Part shown: positions 5,384 to 13,685 of the stretch, piece after piece
Layout: each line of letters starts with the position of its first letter
Numbering within the stretch: position 1 is the stretch's first letter
Origin: an uncultured Chitinophagaceae bacterium
GTDB lineage: Bacteria; Bacteroidota; Bacteroidia; Chitinophagales; Chitinophagaceae
Assembly (NCBI GenBank): GCA_934502905.1
Contig: CAKSVK010000096.1
Coordinates: 1 to 13,685, forward strand
Direction: 5' to 3'
Length of the DNA: 13,685 nucleotides
Position numbers and translations under genes: made by a program
Notes under the pieces: generated by a model
Told to the model about the DNA's origin: nothing
The model's input: only the letters and a program-made list of their open reading frames with translations
Databases searched by the model: none

Positions 5384-6751
5384 TTAATATCCGGGGTTCT
5401 GCGTGATGGTGCCTTCCGAAGCGCCTACTTCCACCTGGGGAATAGGAAGCACCAGCCGGTTGTCATTCCATTCATAGTCTCCTGTTGATAACTTCAGGCG
5501 TTTGATATCATGGATCCTTACACCTTCAAAAGCCAGCTCCAGGTAACGTTGATCCAGTATGTCCTGCAGGGCCGGATTAGCAATTGCCGGCAAATTCACT
5601 CGAACAGGATTGACGATTTTTTCCAGGTCATTTTCGGGTGTATCGCCTACGGAAGTACCCAGTCTTTCATTACATTCTGCACGGGTTAAGTACATTTCAG
5701 CGATCCGGATGACGGGAAGGTTCTGACTGAAAGATTTCCACTTACCGCAGTACATATTACCGGGGCGCGAACCTGTTCCTTCATAATACCAGTTGCTCAG
5801 CCTGGAGTCATCTTCATCATACAGGGAAAGGAATTCATCCACCATTCTCACATCCGCCCTTCCAATGCCGGAAAAGCTGGCATAAAAGGTAGCCATGCCA
5901 TCATTCGCCACACCTGCATTGTTCTGGTCGTTCTGCTGAATTTCAAAAATGGATTCGGTGGTGTTTTTGTTATCAAACACGGCGGTAACGGCAGCGTTCA
6001 TTTTAAACAGGTCGCTTGCTATTACTTCATCTGCTGCATCGCGGGCACCTTCATAATTATGCTGTTGCAGGTAAACACGGCTCAGGAAAGCAATAGCAGT
6101 ATACCGGGTTGCCCTTCTGTCGTTTTCCTCCGGCAACAGGTCTGCTGCTTTTGTCAGGTCATCTATTACCTGCGCGTATACATCTTTTACACTGCTGCGT
6201 GCTGTTTTTTGAAAAGCCTGCTCGGAGGTATGGGTAGCCGTGGTTTTTATTACCACACCAGGATGGCTGTTGTCTGTAGTGGCGCCCCAGGGCAATCCAA
6301 AAAATCTCACCAGCTCGAAATGTACAATTCCACGAATAAAATAAGCTTCTCCTTCTAACTGATCGTGAAGATCAGGATCTGTAACAAGGTCCAGGGAGCC
6401 CAGGACAATATTTGCCATATTGATAGCTTGGTAACCCTTTTGCCAGATGCGCAGGGATTCCGCATTGTCCCGGGTCATACTTTTATTGGCAACTTGCCTG
6501 AAGCTGGTAAATGTGCCCCGCCAGGAAAGGTAGTCGTCCTGTGCCAGCAGATCGGGCACCATCAGCAGGTCTGTTCCATACAGGGCGCCGCCGGCAAGAA
6601 TAGAGTAGGCCCCTACAATGGCGGCATCCACACTTTCGGGGGAGTTGATCGCCTCACCGGCATCAAGGCTGTTTGCCGGCTCTATCTGCAGGTCTTTGTT
6701 GCAGGCGCCCAGCAGTGCTGCAAAAAATAATATATATGTGTATTTTTTCAT
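5384..6751 (-). CDS. SusD/RagB family nutrient-binding outer-membrane lipoprotein
   Basis: The surface lipoprotein lid of a SusCD uptake complex. It captures a glycan or peptide and closes over the SusC channel. The start is taken at the ATG at 6749-6751 (455 residues) rather than the frame start at 6778, because this gives a proper lipoprotein signal (MKKYTYILFFAALLGAC, Cys17). Family landmarks are RIWQKGYQAINMANIVLGSL at ~110, and GEAYFIRGIVHFELVRFFGLPWG (split in any motif search as YFIRG and LVRFFG) at ~145. Others are AIAFLSRVYLQQHNYEGA, RIAEMYLTRAECNERLG, LAFEGVRIHDIKRL and the terminal QNPGY. The length is a little short for the family, with no truncation seen. It lies 16 nt downstream of susC and ends at the bidirectional terminator, so the pair forms a two-gene operon. 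No hydrolase, sigma or anti-sigma gene is adjacent, leaving the substrate unknown. Confidence 0.95.
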   Translation of the reverse strand: MKKYTYILFFAALLGACNKDLQIEPANSLDAGEAINSPESVDAAIVGAYSILAGGALYGTDLLMVPDLLAQDDYLSWRGTFTSFRQVANKSMTRDNAESLRIWQKGYQAINMANIVLGSLDLVTDPDLHDQLEGEAYFIRGIVHFELVRFFGLPWGATTDNSHPGVVIKTTATHTSEQAFQKTARSSVKDVYAQVIDDLTKAADLLPEENDRRATRYTAIAFLSRVYLQQHNYEGARDAADEVIASDLFKMNAAVTAVFDNKNTTESIFEIQQNDQNNAGVANDGMATFYASFSGIGRADVRMVDEFLSLYDEDDSRLSNWYYEGTGSRPGNMYCGKWKSFSQNLPVIRIAEMYLTRAECNERLGTSVGDTPENDLEKIVNPVRVNLPAIANPALQDILDQRYLELAFEGVRIHDIKRLKLSTGDYEWNDNRLVLPIPQVEVGASEGTITQNPGY

Positions 6752-6767
6752 AAAATTCGTATTGATT

Positions 6768-9758
6768 TTATAATCCAATGTTTAACCCTATACTAATGGT
6801 TCTTGCAGGTGGTGGGGTGTAAAAGTCGTGGTTCATGGCAATATTATCTGCAGGATCAGACGTATTGGTGAACGTGCTTACTTCAGGATCATACCCTGTG
6901 TATTTTGTGAACGTGAACAGGTTCAGTCCGGCAACATACAAACGGGCATTTTCTATTTTTAACCGGCTTAACATGCTTTTCGGGAAATTGTAGCCCAGGT
7001 TCACTGTTTTTATCCTGAAATAAGAGCCATCCTGCACCCAGCGGGATGATTTGATTGAACCATTATCTTTATATATGCGGGGCTGTGGTATATTGGTAAT
7101 ATCACCTGGTTTTCTCCAGAAGTTCATCTGGTCTACAGTCTGGTTATCGTAGTAGTTTCCATTCACAGATTGAAAGATTCCGGCCATGTTGTAGATATCT
7201 CCGCCTTTTACAAACTGGCACTGGATATCCAGGTCGAAACCGGCGTAGCTGAACCTGTTATTAAATCCGCCAAAGAAGTCCGGGTTGGGATTGCCCAGGA
7301 TCATATCATCGGCATCTTCAGTTTCATTGGTTTTAGAGCCATCTGCTTTATAATACAATGCATCACCGTTTGCCGGGTCAACTCCTGCATATTTCAACCC
7401 ATAAAACTGGCCAAAAGGCTGACCTTCTTCCAGGCGGCTGAGCGTACGTGACTGGGAAGGTACGGGAGCAACCAGTTTGGTGATCTTGTTTCTGTAAGTA
7501 GATATGTTAACAGAGGCAGTCCAGCTGAGCGGGCCTTTTAGTATCGTGCCGTTCAGGGTCAATTCCCATCCCTTGTTACGCATGCTGCCAATATTCTGGG
7601 TGATCACCGTGAAACCGTTGATGCTGGGCAGCGGCACATCCAGTAACAGGTCTTTTGTGTCTTTATCAAAATAATCTATTTCACCACTGATGCGGTTGTT
7701 TAAAAAGCCGAAGTCTAATCCCACATCAAATTGATTTGTCTTTTCCCACGAGAGGGTGGGTACCCCGATCTGACTGGCAATGATACCTGAAATATCAGCA
7801 TATGCCTGCGCATTATAAAGCGACCTGGATTTGAAATTGCCTATTTCAGCGTTACCTGTTTTTCCATAGCTGGACCTTATTTTCAGGAAGCTGATGGCGC
7901 TGCTGTTTCTCAGAAAATTTTCTTCGCTGATGATCCAGCCGATAGAGGCGGCGGGGAAAGCGCCATAACGGTTGTCCCTGCCGAAACGGGAAGAGCCGTC
8001 TACCCGGAAGCTGGCGCCCAAAAGATAGCGATCGTTGAACTTATAGTTGGCCTTTGCAAAATAGGAGGCAAAAGAGTAGCTGGTCAGTTCGGATGATCCG
8101 GTCGTTATAATAGCGGCGCTGTTTATTTTTTTCAACCTGTCGTCTGCAAACGAACGGCCGGCAACGTAGGACTCTCCGATATCCCCCCGCTGATACTCTA
8201 TCCCGAGTAAGCCGTCTAATGCATGTTGATCGTTAAAAAGCTTGTTGTAGTTAAGCGTATTGGTATAGGTTACAATGGTAGAAGTGACCTGGTTGTTATC
8301 CCCCAGTCCTCCCGGACCGCCGTCCAGGGTTTTCCTGCCCTGGTAATTTTCTTCCTGGAGATTGTTCCAGTCCAACCCTACCTGGCTTCTGAACATCAGG
8401 TCTTTGGTAAGCTGCAACTCCGCATACGCATTGCTGATACTCCGGTAGTTGATCGCGATCTTTTTGGAATTGGCTACTTCTACAAGGTTGTTGTAGTAGA
8501 TGGTATTTTCATTAGGAGTTCCATCGGCATTATACATTGCCTGTATGGGAGGCAGGGCGTTTAATTGGAGGGGGTTGGTAAATGAGTTGTCGCTGTACAA
8601 CCTGTTGTTGATATTCTTGGCAAGCGATACATTTAACCCTATACGAATGAATCTGTTCAGGTTGTGATCTAGGTTTATCCTTGCATTACCACGTTTCAGC
8701 CTGTTGGTAATAATAATCCCTTTTTGATCATTCCATGAGCCACTGATCAGGAAACGCGTTCTTTCATCTCCCCCGTTGATATTAAGGTTATACTGCTGCA
8801 CACCGCCATTCTGAAAAGCTGCATCTGTCCATTTCGAATCGTTCGTGCTGTTCCAGTCCTCCGTAGCGCTTTCTTCAAAAAAGTCCTCAGCCGGGTCAAA
8901 ACCTCTGTAGTCGGCAGCAGCGGTAAATAATTCCCGGTATTGTGCAGCATTCAGGAACTCCCCTTTTTTCGTAGGCCGGCTCCATCCGACATAACTTCCC
9001 AAACTTATCTTGGTTTTACCGGCTTTACCGGATTTGGTAGTGACCAATAGTACACCGTTGGATGCCCTGGCTCCATAGATGGCGGCAGACGCTGCATCTT
9101 TTAATACCTCAATAGAAGCAATATCGTCCGGGTTGATGCTGGCCAGTGGGTTATCAGGTTCGCTGTAGGAGCCGATTGCCTGGCTTAGGACAGGCACCCC
9201 GTCTATAACCACGAGGGGCTGCTGGTTGGCTGAAATAGAAGAGATCCCTCTTACCCTTACATTGAGTCCCTGTCCGAGCTTTCCACTACCGGAATTGATA
9301 AAAACACCCGCTGTTCTTCCCTGTAATGCCTGCTCGAAGGAGGGCAAAGGAAGATTTTCAAACTCTTTAGCTGTCACCCTGGCAATGGAGGAAGTAAGGT
9401 CTTTCTTAATCTTAGTTCCGTACCCCACTACCACCACTTCGCTGAGGGCTTCGCTACCACCTTCCTCCATGCGGATATCCGAAAAATCGGCACCGGCAGG
9501 ACGTTCAACGGTTTTGAAGCCAACAAAGCTGATAACAATGGTAGCGTTTGAAGGCGCATGGAGAAGAAAGCTTCCATCATCTCCGGAAATGGTAGAAGCT
9601 GTCCCGTCCCTGGTTTGGATGCTTGCTCCGGCGATGGGTGCACCATCTCTTGCATCTGTAATTTTTCCTTTAATTTCTTTGGTTTGTGAAACGGCTGTTT
9701 GCAGGAGGATAAACAGCATAAACCCGATCATGGGTACACTTTGCAGCGTTTTTCTCAT
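6768..9758 (-). CDS. SusC/RagA family TonB-linked outer-membrane transporter
   Basis: The TonB-dependent outer-membrane channel partner of SusD. I use the ATG at 9756-9758 (996 residues). The frame also allows a GTG two codons earlier, but the ATG starts a normal signal peptide (MRKTLQSVPMIGFMLFILLQ, cleaved near TAVSQ). Residues ~27-105 are a carboxypeptidase D regulatory-like domain (KGKITDARDGAPIAGASI...). A SusC-typical SEVVVVGYGT segment follows at ~108-117, then the plug domain with LQGRTAGVFI, VRVRGISSI, PLVVIDGVPV and IEVLKDAASAAIYGARASNG. The rest is the beta-barrel, with GAFPAASIGWIISEENF and an end RTISIGLNIGL. No N-terminal STN secretin/TonB signalling domain is present, so it is not expected to act through an ECF sigma/anti-sigma pair. 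A Bacteroidota promoter is visible at 9782-9810. Confidence 0.97.
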   Translation of the reverse strand: MRKTLQSVPMIGFMLFILLQTAVSQTKEIKGKITDARDGAPIAGASIQTRDGTASTISGDDGSFLLHAPSNATIVISFVGFKTVERPAGADFSDIRMEEGGSEALSEVVVVGYGTKIKKDLTSSIARVTAKEFENLPLPSFEQALQGRTAGVFINSGSGKLGQGLNVRVRGISSISANQQPLVVIDGVPVLSQAIGSYSEPDNPLASINPDDIASIEVLKDAASAAIYGARASNGVLLVTTKSGKAGKTKISLGSYVGWSRPTKKGEFLNAAQYRELFTAAADYRGFDPAEDFFEESATEDWNSTNDSKWTDAAFQNGGVQQYNLNINGGDERTRFLISGSWNDQKGIIITNRLKRGNARINLDHNLNRFIRIGLNVSLAKNINNRLYSDNSFTNPLQLNALPPIQAMYNADGTPNENTIYYNNLVEVANSKKIAINYRSISNAYAELQLTKDLMFRSQVGLDWNNLQEENYQGRKTLDGGPGGLGDNNQVTSTIVTYTNTLNYNKLFNDQHALDGLLGIEYQRGDIGESYVAGRSFADDRLKKINSAAIITTGSSELTSYSFASYFAKANYKFNDRYLLGASFRVDGSSRFGRDNRYGAFPAASIGWIISEENFLRNSSAISFLKIRSSYGKTGNAEIGNFKSRSLYNAQAYADISGIIASQIGVPTLSWEKTNQFDVGLDFGFLNNRISGEIDYFDKDTKDLLLDVPLPSINGFTVITQNIGSMRNKGWELTLNGTILKGPLSWTASVNISTYRNKITKLVAPVPSQSRTLSRLEEGQPFGQFYGLKYAGVDPANGDALYYKADGSKTNETEDADDMILGNPNPDFFGGFNNRFSYAGFDLDIQCQFVKGGDIYNMAGIFQSVNGNYYDNQTVDQMNFWRKPGDITNIPQPRIYKDNGSIKSSRWVQDGSYFRIKTVNLGYNFPKSMLSRLKIENARLYVAGLNLFTFTKYTGYDPEVSTFTNTSDPADNIAMNHDFYTPPPARTISIGLNIGL

Positions 9759-9781
9759 AGACACTTGATTGTTGGTTAAGA

Positions 9782-11466: not shown

Positions 11467-11617
11467 AACGTAAATTTACAAATTTCTGTTGATCGGTTTC
11501 CGGTAATCCTGCCGGTCTTTTTTGCCGGTTTCCGGAAGTGAGAACCAGGGGAATGACCGGGTATTTCTGTTTTTTGATTTTTTCATTTCTGATTTTTCGT
11601 TCGTCCCTTACATCAGC

Positions 11618-11663
11618 AATCGTCCATCAAAAATCAGCAATATGCGATTGTTGATGGACGATT
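11618..11663. repeat. Large imperfect hairpin, possible dispersed palindromic element
   Basis: AATCGTCCATCAAAAATC (11618-11635) pairs with GATTGTTGATGGACGATT (11646-11663): 18 bp with one mismatch. Inside, GCA (11637-11639) and TGC (11643-11645) pair around a 3-base ATA loop, leaving one bulged A at 11636. The 9-base word ATTTCTGAT occurs on both sides (11585-11593 and 11675-11683). No open frame uses it, and it lacks a terminal T-run, so it looks more like a palindromic intergenic repeat than a terminator. Confidence 0.6.
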
Positions 11664-11685
11664 TACGATTTGAGATTTCTGATAT
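11658..11685. repeat. Heptamer-period tract, ACGATTT type
   Basis: Four consecutive 7-mers: ACGATTT, ACGATTT, GAGATTT, CTGATAT. The first two are identical and the rest drift. The tract overlaps the right end of the hairpin and ends about 30 bases before the LuxR fragment. Period-7 intergenic repeats are known as a class in some bacteria (the cyanobacterial STRR sequences); membership of this tract in such a class is inferred. Confidence 0.4.
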
Positions 11686-11713: not shown

Positions 11714-11863
11714 TCATCCCATTTCTTTTAAATAGCGTACCAGGTCTGTGTCCGCATCTAACCGGAACTTTTGTTTCAGGCGGTATTTGGTCATGCATAC
11801 GCTTTTAGGTTCCACATTCAACAGGTGGGCAATTCGTGCCAAAGCATCCCAACAATATGCCAC
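11714..11863 (-). pseudogene. C-terminal remnant of a LuxR-type (HTH) regulator
   Basis: Reading from 11863 (GTG) to the TGA at 11714-11716 gives 49 residues. All but the first ~6 look like the DNA-binding end of a Bacteroidota LuxR-type regulator: ALARIAHLLNVEPKSV, then MTKYRLKQKFRL, then TDLVRYLKEMG. The turn and recognition helix (LLNVEPKSVCMTKYRLKQKF) are intact by eye. Immediately upstream in frame is a TAG stop (11864-11866), and sequence beyond it shows no regulator homology, so the sensor or receiver part (normally several hundred residues) is missing. The break falls near 11846-11850. This is best read as a gene fragment left by a deletion or insertion. Such fragments can sometimes still be expressed as DNA-binding miniproteins, but no start signal supports that here. 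Confidence 0.7.
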
Positions 11864-12030: not shown

Positions 12031-13685
12031 CTATCGCCAGATCGTTACATGTTCTGTTTTATCCTGAAACTGTGCTGCCAGAGATTTTATCCTGGATTGT
12101 AGCAGGATTTTCCTGCCTTCCTGTGTACGGGTGAATACAAGCTCACAATTACCTATCTTTTTCAGCCATTGTTCCTTGAAGAACTCAGCCAGCTTTTTAT
12201 TTTTCCCCAATATTTCCGGAATGGAATGGTAGTCTTTTTGTTTTATAATCAACATAAACCGGCTCTTGCGAATAATAATATACCTGGGGTTTTCTATTGG
12301 ACCTAGCATTTCCTGCAACAGGTTTTTGAATGTTGATGCTTCAAATGTGCTGCCTCCTTCCAAATGACAATATACTCCGCCGGAAGTATCGGTAGTAGTC
12401 AACACCTGCAACCGGTCGGGAGCTGTATGTATGATCCCTGCTTTAATTAATGAGGAAAGAAGTACATCTCCTATTTTATGTATATCTTTTGCTATGTCCC
12501 GGTATTGAATGTAGAGCCGGAGGGCTTTAAGCGTGGAACTGCCAAATAGAATAACGCCCGACATTCCAATAAGAGATAAAATATAATATAGACCTTCTTT
12601 ATTCCGGATCTTAGTGACATGTCCGATTAATTCCCACAGGCTTTCCGCACCAAATGTCACTATTGCAGATGTAAGTGTGGCAAACATGAAAGCAATGGTT
12701 TTGTTGAAGTACAGGCGTTTTTGAACCGGGTAGGTCCGCTTGCCTGTATATGGTATCCGGAGTTCTTCCACAAGCTTCATACCTGAGCCAAGCGCATCTT
12801 TCCACCGCTCGTGCAGCAGGTCTCTTTCAGTAGCCAGCCGGAGTGTCTTCATATTTTTTTCTTCCATTGCTGGTTTTTCATGGATATTTTCGGGAATAGC
12901 AATTCTTTTACTGCCATTTTCTATGGTATTTTCATGATAAGAAACACCTGTGAAGCTTCTGAAACGGCGCTTTAAAAGTTCAATATCGTCTCCTCCACCA
13001 GTAGCGGCAGGATCTATACATACCAGGTGCCATATATTGCTGGTCTTTTCCGCATACTCTTGTTGTGTTCTGATGGCCCTGCCCCGCATTTGATTTGACA
13101 GTACAAAAGAGCCGACAAAACTGGCTAGTATAAGGGTGTTGATAGCCGGAGCATCCCAACCCTCACCCAATAGCGATTTGGTACCGATCAGGATATTAAT
13201 TTCTCCATCCTGGAACAATTGCGTTATAATATGGACAATATTATGTTTCAACTGTTCGGTAGTATATAGCAGATAATAATTATCATCAAATGGCAAAGAT
13301 TGAATATTTACTTCCGGAACCTCATACTTTGAAGTAAGCTTCTCAAAAGCAGTCCCCGCGGTACGCGGAATAATTATTGCCGACCCTGTGAGTACTCCCA
13401 GCTTCTTTTCATCGGTGTTTTCCCTACGGAGAGATTCAAAGATGGGTATTACCCCCATTTTGTTCAGGGGTAAATTGTTTTCAGGCGCAAGCGTCAGGTA
13501 TTCTTTCCTGATATAATCAGAAAGAATGACCATTCTTAAGTTGTGGGAAAGCTTATTGAATTCAAGCGACACTATCTCATTAATAGCTTTCAATTTGCTG
13601 GTGCTGGCAGTAAGAAAGCTGCTTATTCTTCTATTGTAGGTGAGGTGGATCTTTTTTCGATCCAGTGCGCCAATATGTTTCAGTC
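12031..13685 (-). CDS. Superfamily 2 helicase with membrane segments, C-terminal part; 5' end outside window
   Basis: The frame is open to the window edge (550 residues visible). An apparent TTG start at 13591-13593 is not real, because coding continues upstream with HIGALDRKK and TYNRRISSFL. In numbering from that TTG, the RecA-like domain 2 of an SF2 (DEAD/DEAH, type-III-restriction-like) helicase is clear. It has motif IV-like NLRMVILSDYI (18-28), motif V ILIGTKSLLGEGWDAP (134-149) and motif VI QMRGRAIR (168-175) with its arginine fingers. Motifs I-III must lie upstream. Two hydrophobic helices follow at ~298-318 and ~333-353, then a ~165-residue C-terminal domain with GGVYCHLEGG and GPIENPRYIIIRKS. 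A helicase core followed by membrane helices is unusual; a role in defence or foreign-DNA handling is inference only. Four hand-counted rows give ~37% GC, lower than susCD. Confidence 0.82.
   Translation of the reverse strand, partial: LKHIGALDRKKIHLTYNRRISSFLTASTSKLKAINEIVSLEFNKLSHNLRMVILSDYIRKEYLTLAPENNLPLNKMGVIPIFESLRRENTDEKKLGVLTGSAIIIPRTAGTAFEKLTSKYEVPEVNIQSLPFDDNYYLLYTTEQLKHNIVHIITQLFQDGEINILIGTKSLLGEGWDAPAINTLILASFVGSFVLSNQMRGRAIRTQQEYAEKTSNIWHLVCIDPAATGGGDDIELLKRRFRSFTGVSYHENTIENGSKRIAIPENIHEKPAMEEKNMKTLRLATERDLLHERWKDALGSGMKLVEELRIPYTGKRTYPVQKRLYFNKTIAFMFATLTSAIVTFGAESLWELIGHVTKIRNKEGLYYILSLIGMSGVILFGSSTLKALRLYIQYRDIAKDIHKIGDVLLSSLIKAGIIHTAPDRLQVLTTTDTSGGVYCHLEGGSTFEASTFKNLLQEMLGPIENPRYIIIRKSRFMLIIKQKDYHSIPEILGKNKKLAEFFKEQWLKKIGNCELVFTRTQEGRKILLQSRIKSLAAQFQDKTEHVTIWR

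Follow-up and report, generated by a model that had tools for sequence, protein, structure and literature searches.

The DNA analysed here, 13,685 nucleotides of contig CAKSVK010000096.1 from an uncultured Chitinophagaceae bacterium (the whole stretch is called the window below), ends within a partial gene for a superfamily 2 (SF2) helicase. Two properties of the family to which this gene belongs are well supported by sequence comparison: an architecture in which a helicase core, a predicted membrane hairpin and a conserved C-terminal domain (CTD) follow one another, and mobility as a single gene. We favor, tentatively and at somewhat less than an even chance, the reading that the protein is a self-contained XPB/FANCM/RIG-I-type translocase, held at the membrane, whose substrate is foreign or abnormal nucleic acid.

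The open reading frame (ORF) at 12031..13683 (minus strand) has its stop codon at 12031-12033, is cut at its 5' end by the window edge, and encodes, as judged from its translation and its relatives, the C-terminal 550 residues of a protein of ~900 amino acids (aa). At least 7,320 proteins match this fragment at E ≤ 0.001 (7,997 candidates scored), and the ORF is therefore real rather than a product of chance. Among the 120 matches listed, identity is 57-60% over 99-100% of the fragment and length is 883-923 aa, with one exception of 610 aa; since relatives are mostly ~905 aa long, the full protein should start ~350 residues upstream of the window edge. The domain order in the fragment is the second RecA lobe (RecA2) with motifs V and VI, the membrane hairpin and then the ~165-aa CTD, and the RecA1 side of full-length relatives matches ResIII/DEAD in Pfam. 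Motif V (GEGWDAP, residues 173-179, 13147..13167) and motif VI (QMRGRAIR, residues 198-205, 13069..13092), both on the minus strand, are the only SF2 motifs in the window itself; motifs I-III are known from the relatives. Motifs V and VI had been recognized at the window end in a reading made from the DNA letters alone (the sequence-only reading), and the letters together with a match to Pfam Helicase_C (26.7 bits against a curated cut-off of 23.5) confirm them. The patterns for motifs I, II, III, V and VI occur in 84, 91, 90, 91 and 77 of 91 long relatives, respectively; GEGWD is present in all 91 and Q..GR[AS]IR in 77, and 14 carry the motif VI variant Q[ML]RGRV[IL]R. Variants explain the misses of motifs I and VI, save for one motif I, and by these patterns the helicase motifs are intact across the relatives.

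Membrane helices were assessed by insertion energy, using our own implementation of the biological hydrophobicity formula. In the fragment, the second hairpin segment (TM2, residues 364-385, 12529..12594, minus strand) is predicted to be a clear membrane helix, with an energy of -0.71, and the first (TM1, residues 324-346, 12646..12714, minus strand) a marginal one, at +1.07; the best segment outside the hairpin, located at motif V, scores +1.41 kcal/mol. The sequence-only reading had proposed a membrane-linked helicase with two helices at ~298-353, numbered on a 520-aa ORF that starts 30 residues later than the 550-aa fragment. In that numbering the predicted segments lie at ~294-316 and ~334-355, so the positions agree, and the membrane link is borne out by prediction with one helix clear and the other marginal. 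The second segment scores below +1 kcal/mol in 89 of the 91 long relatives and the first in 37 (median +1.41); a segment below +1 occurs outside the hairpin region in 12, and both best segments of the whole protein fall inside that region in only 54. The assignment of two membrane helices is probably right, with the second alone standing by itself on these scores. In the structure model of a relative, TM1 lies within a long helix at low confidence. Membrane-spanning helices, as expected of an integral membrane protein, are thus present by prediction only. Kyte-Doolittle hydropathy was dropped as a hairpin detector, because it could not tell the hairpin apart from buried stretches elsewhere: at a threshold of >1.6, 77 relatives showed two segments in the hairpin region in 22 cases, one in 42 and none in 13, and 53 of the 77 had such a segment elsewhere.

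A survey of the hairpin and the CTD covered 335 sequences, namely 240 database proteins (among the matches listed) and 95 genomic loci. The spacing between motif V and the NPRY of the CTD, measurable in 309, is ~293 residues as a rule and ~230 in the Tritonibacter branch; 290 of the proteins have the long linker and 19 the short one. The long-linker proteins contain a segment below +1 kcal/mol in 281 of 290 cases; the 19 short-linker proteins have none below +2.4 kcal/mol. This hairpin-less branch (L183:6004-8307; P0195-P0203 and P0209-P0214) keeps both the helicase and the CTD, and its three named members (Rhodovulum, Pikeienuella and Paracoccus) all belong to the Rhodobacterales. Because at least 19 natural proteins without the hairpin retain both flanking parts, the hairpin can be regarded as a removable cassette between helicase and CTD. 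The other 26 sequences gave no measurable spacing; five of them are 770-778 aa long and probably also short-linker proteins.

The CTD (residues 386-550, 12034..12528, minus strand) was found in 331 of the 335 sequences, and the four that lack it are short (436-744 aa), in agreement with the earlier view of a distinct, conserved C-terminal domain. Its landmarks in fragment numbering are GGVYCHLEGG from residue 435 and PIENPRY from residue 462. Across 70 aligned sequences P466, P489, W506 and G523 are invariant, and C439, G443, E458, N465, R467, Y468, T518, R519, R524, R531 and W549 nearly so. The structure model of the CTD (pLDDT 84) begins with a long helix, after which comes a mixed alpha/beta domain. 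Searches returned no recognized fold, which does not make the fold new, and no conserved acidic cluster of the nuclease kind was seen in it. The domain may serve in binding or gating.

Relatives in genomes were collected by scanning one genome per species with an alignment (A1) as query, which gave at least 593 stretches, of which 577 are relatives, and the best 80 were retained as loci. The same scan with the fragment alone as query gave no match. By record title, Bacteroidota account for 70 of these best 80 loci. The other 10 come from Paenibacillus, Rossellomorea, one unnamed bacterium and metagenome-assembled genomes (MAGs) of Omnitrophota, Sedimentisphaerales, Tissierellales, Thorarchaeota (three) and Lokiarchaeota. 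Contigs of MAGs are sometimes misbinned, but at only ~40% identity to the query the Asgard copies are not Bacteroidota contamination; Thorarchaeota-named proteins also recur among the protein database matches. A more distant branch of the family occurs in Alphaproteobacteria. The Lokiarchaeota relative (L080:8894-12667) is 1258 aa long and has an N-terminal extension of ~350 residues without a Pfam match (E ≤ 1e-4). Two records labeled as phage that carry a relative are faecal contigs; the one that was opened, L143 (MT836806.1), is marked unverified and is probably mislabeled bacterial DNA, because its neighbors, named by eye, are ABC-transporter-like. We found no open-license paper whose title or abstract start describes the family, which does not prove absence.

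The distribution within Bacteroidota is patchy. The helicase was found in 14 of 395 Bacteroidota genomes (including the known carrier, the centre genome G001) and in one of 147 genomes of the Chitinophaga family, that one being G001 itself. The sequence-only reading of an accessory locus holds in the form of a patchy, horizontally moving gene. Divergence was compared with that of a core gene, rlmH, in 20 carriers, all chosen as carriers, of which 19 gave an RlmH match. Identity in the helicase and in RlmH is uncorrelated (r = -0.06 over 171 pairs), and the helicase is at least 15 points closer than RlmH in 46 of the 171 pairs, as between Belliella and Brumimicrobium (91% in the helicase vs 58% in RlmH). 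The continuous shared unit is one gene. In only 18 of 136 pairs from 17 carriers does DNA similarity continuous with the gene run on past either end of the ORF for more than 30 bp, and the longest such extensions are 175 bp upstream and 141 bp downstream. Pairs that involve L001, L004, L006 or L021 are weak evidence, because at least one side has less than 300 bp of contig; in L002/L003 (157 and 12 bp) and L003/L007 (175 and 21 bp) each side offers more than 7 kb. Apart from these continuous stretches, the flanks match in one place of 116 bp in L003/L007, ~1.9 kb upstream, and in five of up to 775 bp between Pedobacter species.

Loss of the gene could be followed at one site. Loci of the Chryseobacterium type show clade-wide synteny with phenylacetate genes and a uracil-DNA-glycosylase-like (UDG-superfamily) gene, and we surveyed 78 genomes of the genus of G316, whose locus shows this gene order (G316, the centre genome, included). 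The helicase is present in 24, split into two frames in two of them, and all 24 copies lie within ~60 bp of the UDG-like gene on the same strand, as seen by comparing coordinates side by side. Among the first 20 of the 54 helicase-less genomes listed, 18 have just 65-125 bp between the UDG-like gene and the next core gene, and one (L160) has a different gene in place. In G541, a relic (L144:7615-7965) retains 63 in-frame residues of the helicase C-terminus, 92% identical to those of a carrier, and to judge from this match it is a direct sign of deletion. In a tree of 35 UDG-like sequences (15 with and 20 without the helicase, the relic counted as without), helicase presence changes at least seven times, two of which are forced by firmly supported branches, and presence is clustered beyond what most label shuffles give (as low a value arose in 1 and 5 of 500). 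Helicase and UDG identity are correlated in the 15 loci (r = 0.81 over 105 pairs), so inheritance and loss of the helicase seem to predominate there, whereas across orders the gene is transferred.

The same site bears on the main rival explanation, to which we give a probability well below one half: an accessory DNA-repair or fork-remodelling translocase, FANCM/XPB-like, that would act on DNA attached to the membrane, in chromosome tethering, segregation or stress, and be retained where damage is common. It would fit the UDG-superfamily gene that adjoins the helicase in all 15 of the Chryseobacterium/Elizabethkingia-type loci, in one of them on the opposite side. However, the UDG-like gene is present in 76 of the 78 genus genomes, including 52 of the 54 without the helicase, so the adjacency shows no functional link and the gene was rejected as a partner. 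Patchiness, cross-order transfer and repeated loss are also unusual for repair genes. Mostly core metabolic surroundings, with fixed sites in two clades, fit a repair role.

Neighboring genes were clustered over 80 and then 95 loci. No neighbor recurring across clades as a partner would was found in the 95 loci, the gene upstream of the window's own copy lying beyond the window edge, and the partner genes raised by the sequence-only reading are not supported. A family that appears beta-lactamase-like by eye lies within two genes of the helicase in five loci (L009, L019, L024, L133 and L139), with varying side and strand; another neighbor family occurs in four loci (L014, L015, L031 and L073), and an ABC-type ATPase family in 10 at scattered distances. 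These are taken as common families rather than partners. In a clade of seven loci, hemF and hemE are only a few genes away from the helicase, and in four of the seven hemB adjoins it (names from one representative). Housekeeping surroundings had been named in advance as evidence against defence, and the contexts are indeed mostly of that kind (heme, phenylacetate, sugar); they differ by clade and point to no functional link. Helicases of different clades in L007:13016-16544 and L033:13695-17278 stand beside the same galE-type core gene order (by eye), which may be chance or a preferred landing site. The absence of company also bears on the view that this is an ordinary orphan helicase that serves no selected role and owes its spread to chance transfer: it would suit a lone gene in mostly ordinary surroundings for which no phenotype is known to us, but the ATPase motifs and the CTD remain conserved down to ~40% identity in Bacteroidota, Bacillota and Asgard MAGs, and we consider this view very improbable.

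In the window, the helicase is followed directly downstream by a gene remnant (11714..11845, minus strand), the last ~43 codons of what is by eye a LuxR-type helix-turn-helix regulator, with a stop few codons upstream in its translation; transglutaminase-like and rlmH genes come next. The remnant suggests that the regulator gene was broken either when the helicase arrived or by a deletion. A 29-nt imperfect inverted repeat (11607-11674, 79% complementary, 10 nt between the arms) lies in the gap between helicase and transglutaminase genes. Another genome, G514, has the transglutaminase and rlmH genes in common with the window and no helicase in the 18 kb examined; the window's copy is therefore accessory there, although G514 is not an exact empty site. 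The AT-rich composition noted earlier is only slight, the helicase gene having 42-43% GC against 38-48% across the window. Positions 5384-9764 hold a SusD-like and TonB/SusC-like pair (by eye), typical of Bacteroidota. The other end of the window carries comM-like (3-563) and comF-like (538-1269) genes, also assigned by eye, which together with the predicted hairpin and the translocase fold would agree with a motor for DNA uptake or entry at the membrane, helping incoming DNA in competence or plasmid entry. The com-like genes, however, are ~11 kb away beside unrelated genes; no neighbor family recurs across clades in the manner of a partner (com genes were not sought by name elsewhere), hairpin-less versions exist, and a gene in 14 of 395 Bacteroidota genomes is too rare for a general uptake part. 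An uptake function is improbable.

Comparison with known systems places the helicase core near several translocases. The XPB/RAD25 profile (archaeal XPBII, TFIIH XPB) matches the relatives in RecA1 only (profile positions 12-112, E = 1.4e-14). XPB has as hallmarks a damage-recognition domain, a RED motif and a thumb; it is not known to have a membrane hairpin, whereas the present family is a lone gene with a predicted one. The family resembles the FANCM/Hef/RIG-I-like group in that its two RecA lobes are separated by a helical stretch (residues 239-405 in a relative's model), which may correspond to the insert of that group. Structure alignments extend over 412 residues for FANCM and 405 for RIG-I, RecA2 matches Hef in sequence (E = 2.4e-5), and NCBI gives one relative the name Hef nuclease. 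The differences are the hairpin, the unmatched CTD and the lack of a Pfam nuclease domain: in three full-length relatives ResIII and DEAD are the sole domains to pass the Pfam cut-off, with no ERCC4-type nuclease domain as in Hef. That the nearest folds and sequences include the repair translocases XPB and FANCM speaks for a repair role. The likeness to RIG-I raises a further option, a one-protein RNA-directed guard in which a RIG-I-like motor would sense double-stranded or foreign RNA through the CTD and act at the membrane; we regard it as unlikely. Type I/III restriction enzymes (HsdR, Res) are similar in that RecA1 matches Pfam ResIII and RecA2 gives weak NCBIfam/PADLOC matches, and differ in that no endonuclease domain is found here by Pfam, the unit is one gene, and no methylase or specificity subunit recurs in the 95 loci. 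HamB of Hachiman, a Ski2-like helicase, acts with the nuclease HamA (PMC12278908). The present family may work in a similar manner, as a helicase checking nucleic acid for abnormality, with the difference that HamB has a partner and none was found for the present family. The PADLOC models PbeA and PDC-M27C match the helicase part (best E = 4.8e-11 and 6.9e-8), covering only parts of the core, and no companion genes were found.

A defence role is a tentative assignment, to which we would give rather less than half the weight. In the mechanism we propose, the protein would be an ATP-driven nucleic-acid translocase with two RecA lobes and a helical insert between them, usually tethered by the two-helix hairpin to the inner membrane with helicase and CTD both cytoplasmic. 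The CTD would read the substrate (an end, a junction or a foreign structure) or hold the protein inactive. On meeting incoming or abnormal DNA, the motor would engage at the membrane and displace, unwind or stall it, and the cell would be protected without a separate nuclease or partner. That the substrate is DNA rather than RNA, the topology, the role of the CTD, and protection from foreign DNA as the benefit are features that we infer. Protection against foreign nucleic acid fits best because an ATP-driven motor is transferred and repeatedly lost with nothing else attached; we keep a repair role in view because of the closest folds and the core-gene surroundings. In a bolder form of the proposal, which is doubtful, the single gene would provide immune sensing and effector action together: an XPB/FANCM/RIG-I-type translocase, tethered to the membrane and equipped with an orphan sensor domain at its C-terminus, would guard bacteria as well as Asgard archaea against foreign nucleic acid and need no nuclease, partner or signal to do so.

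Several results weigh against protection from foreign nucleic acid as the function. Enrichment of homologs near known defence genes, suggested earlier as a check, was not borne out. PADLOC at E ≤ 1e-15 was applied to 150 of 239 near proteins (63 of 68 loci) and 150 of 257 far proteins (51 loci), leaving out 15 Chryseobacterium-type, seven heme-clade and five redundant loci. It showed no clear enrichment of defence families beside the helicase: 16 families near vs 10 far, each matched by one protein of 150 and several of them broad enzyme families by name. The commonest Pfam families nearby were acetyltransferases, outer-membrane proteins and epimerases, with 3-4 of 150 each. PADLOC 2.0 (library of 2023) gives only partial helicase matches to the protein itself. 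The Chryseobacterium-type and heme clades keep the helicase at a fixed place beside core genes. Relatives occur in only four of 72,556 plasmid records, and none turned up in IMG/VR when it was scanned with two peptide patterns. In two Pedobacter species the helicase is less alike than RlmH (85% vs 98%), as it is in the five lowest pairs (48-50% vs 54-60%). The hairpin blocks of the relative's model have a pLDDT of 53-69, and no Pfam nuclease domain that would account for any effector action is found in the three full-length relatives.

Many new defence genes have been found through their clustering with known ones. The helicase family described here shows the signs of an accessory gene, namely cross-order transfer, patchiness and repeated loss. 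Because it is a lone gene, mostly among metabolic genes rather than in defence islands, guilt-by-association screens would miss it. The natural versions without a hairpin, together with the Chryseobacterium species pairs in which the helicase is present or absent, provide ready controls for the function of a membrane-bound DNA motor.
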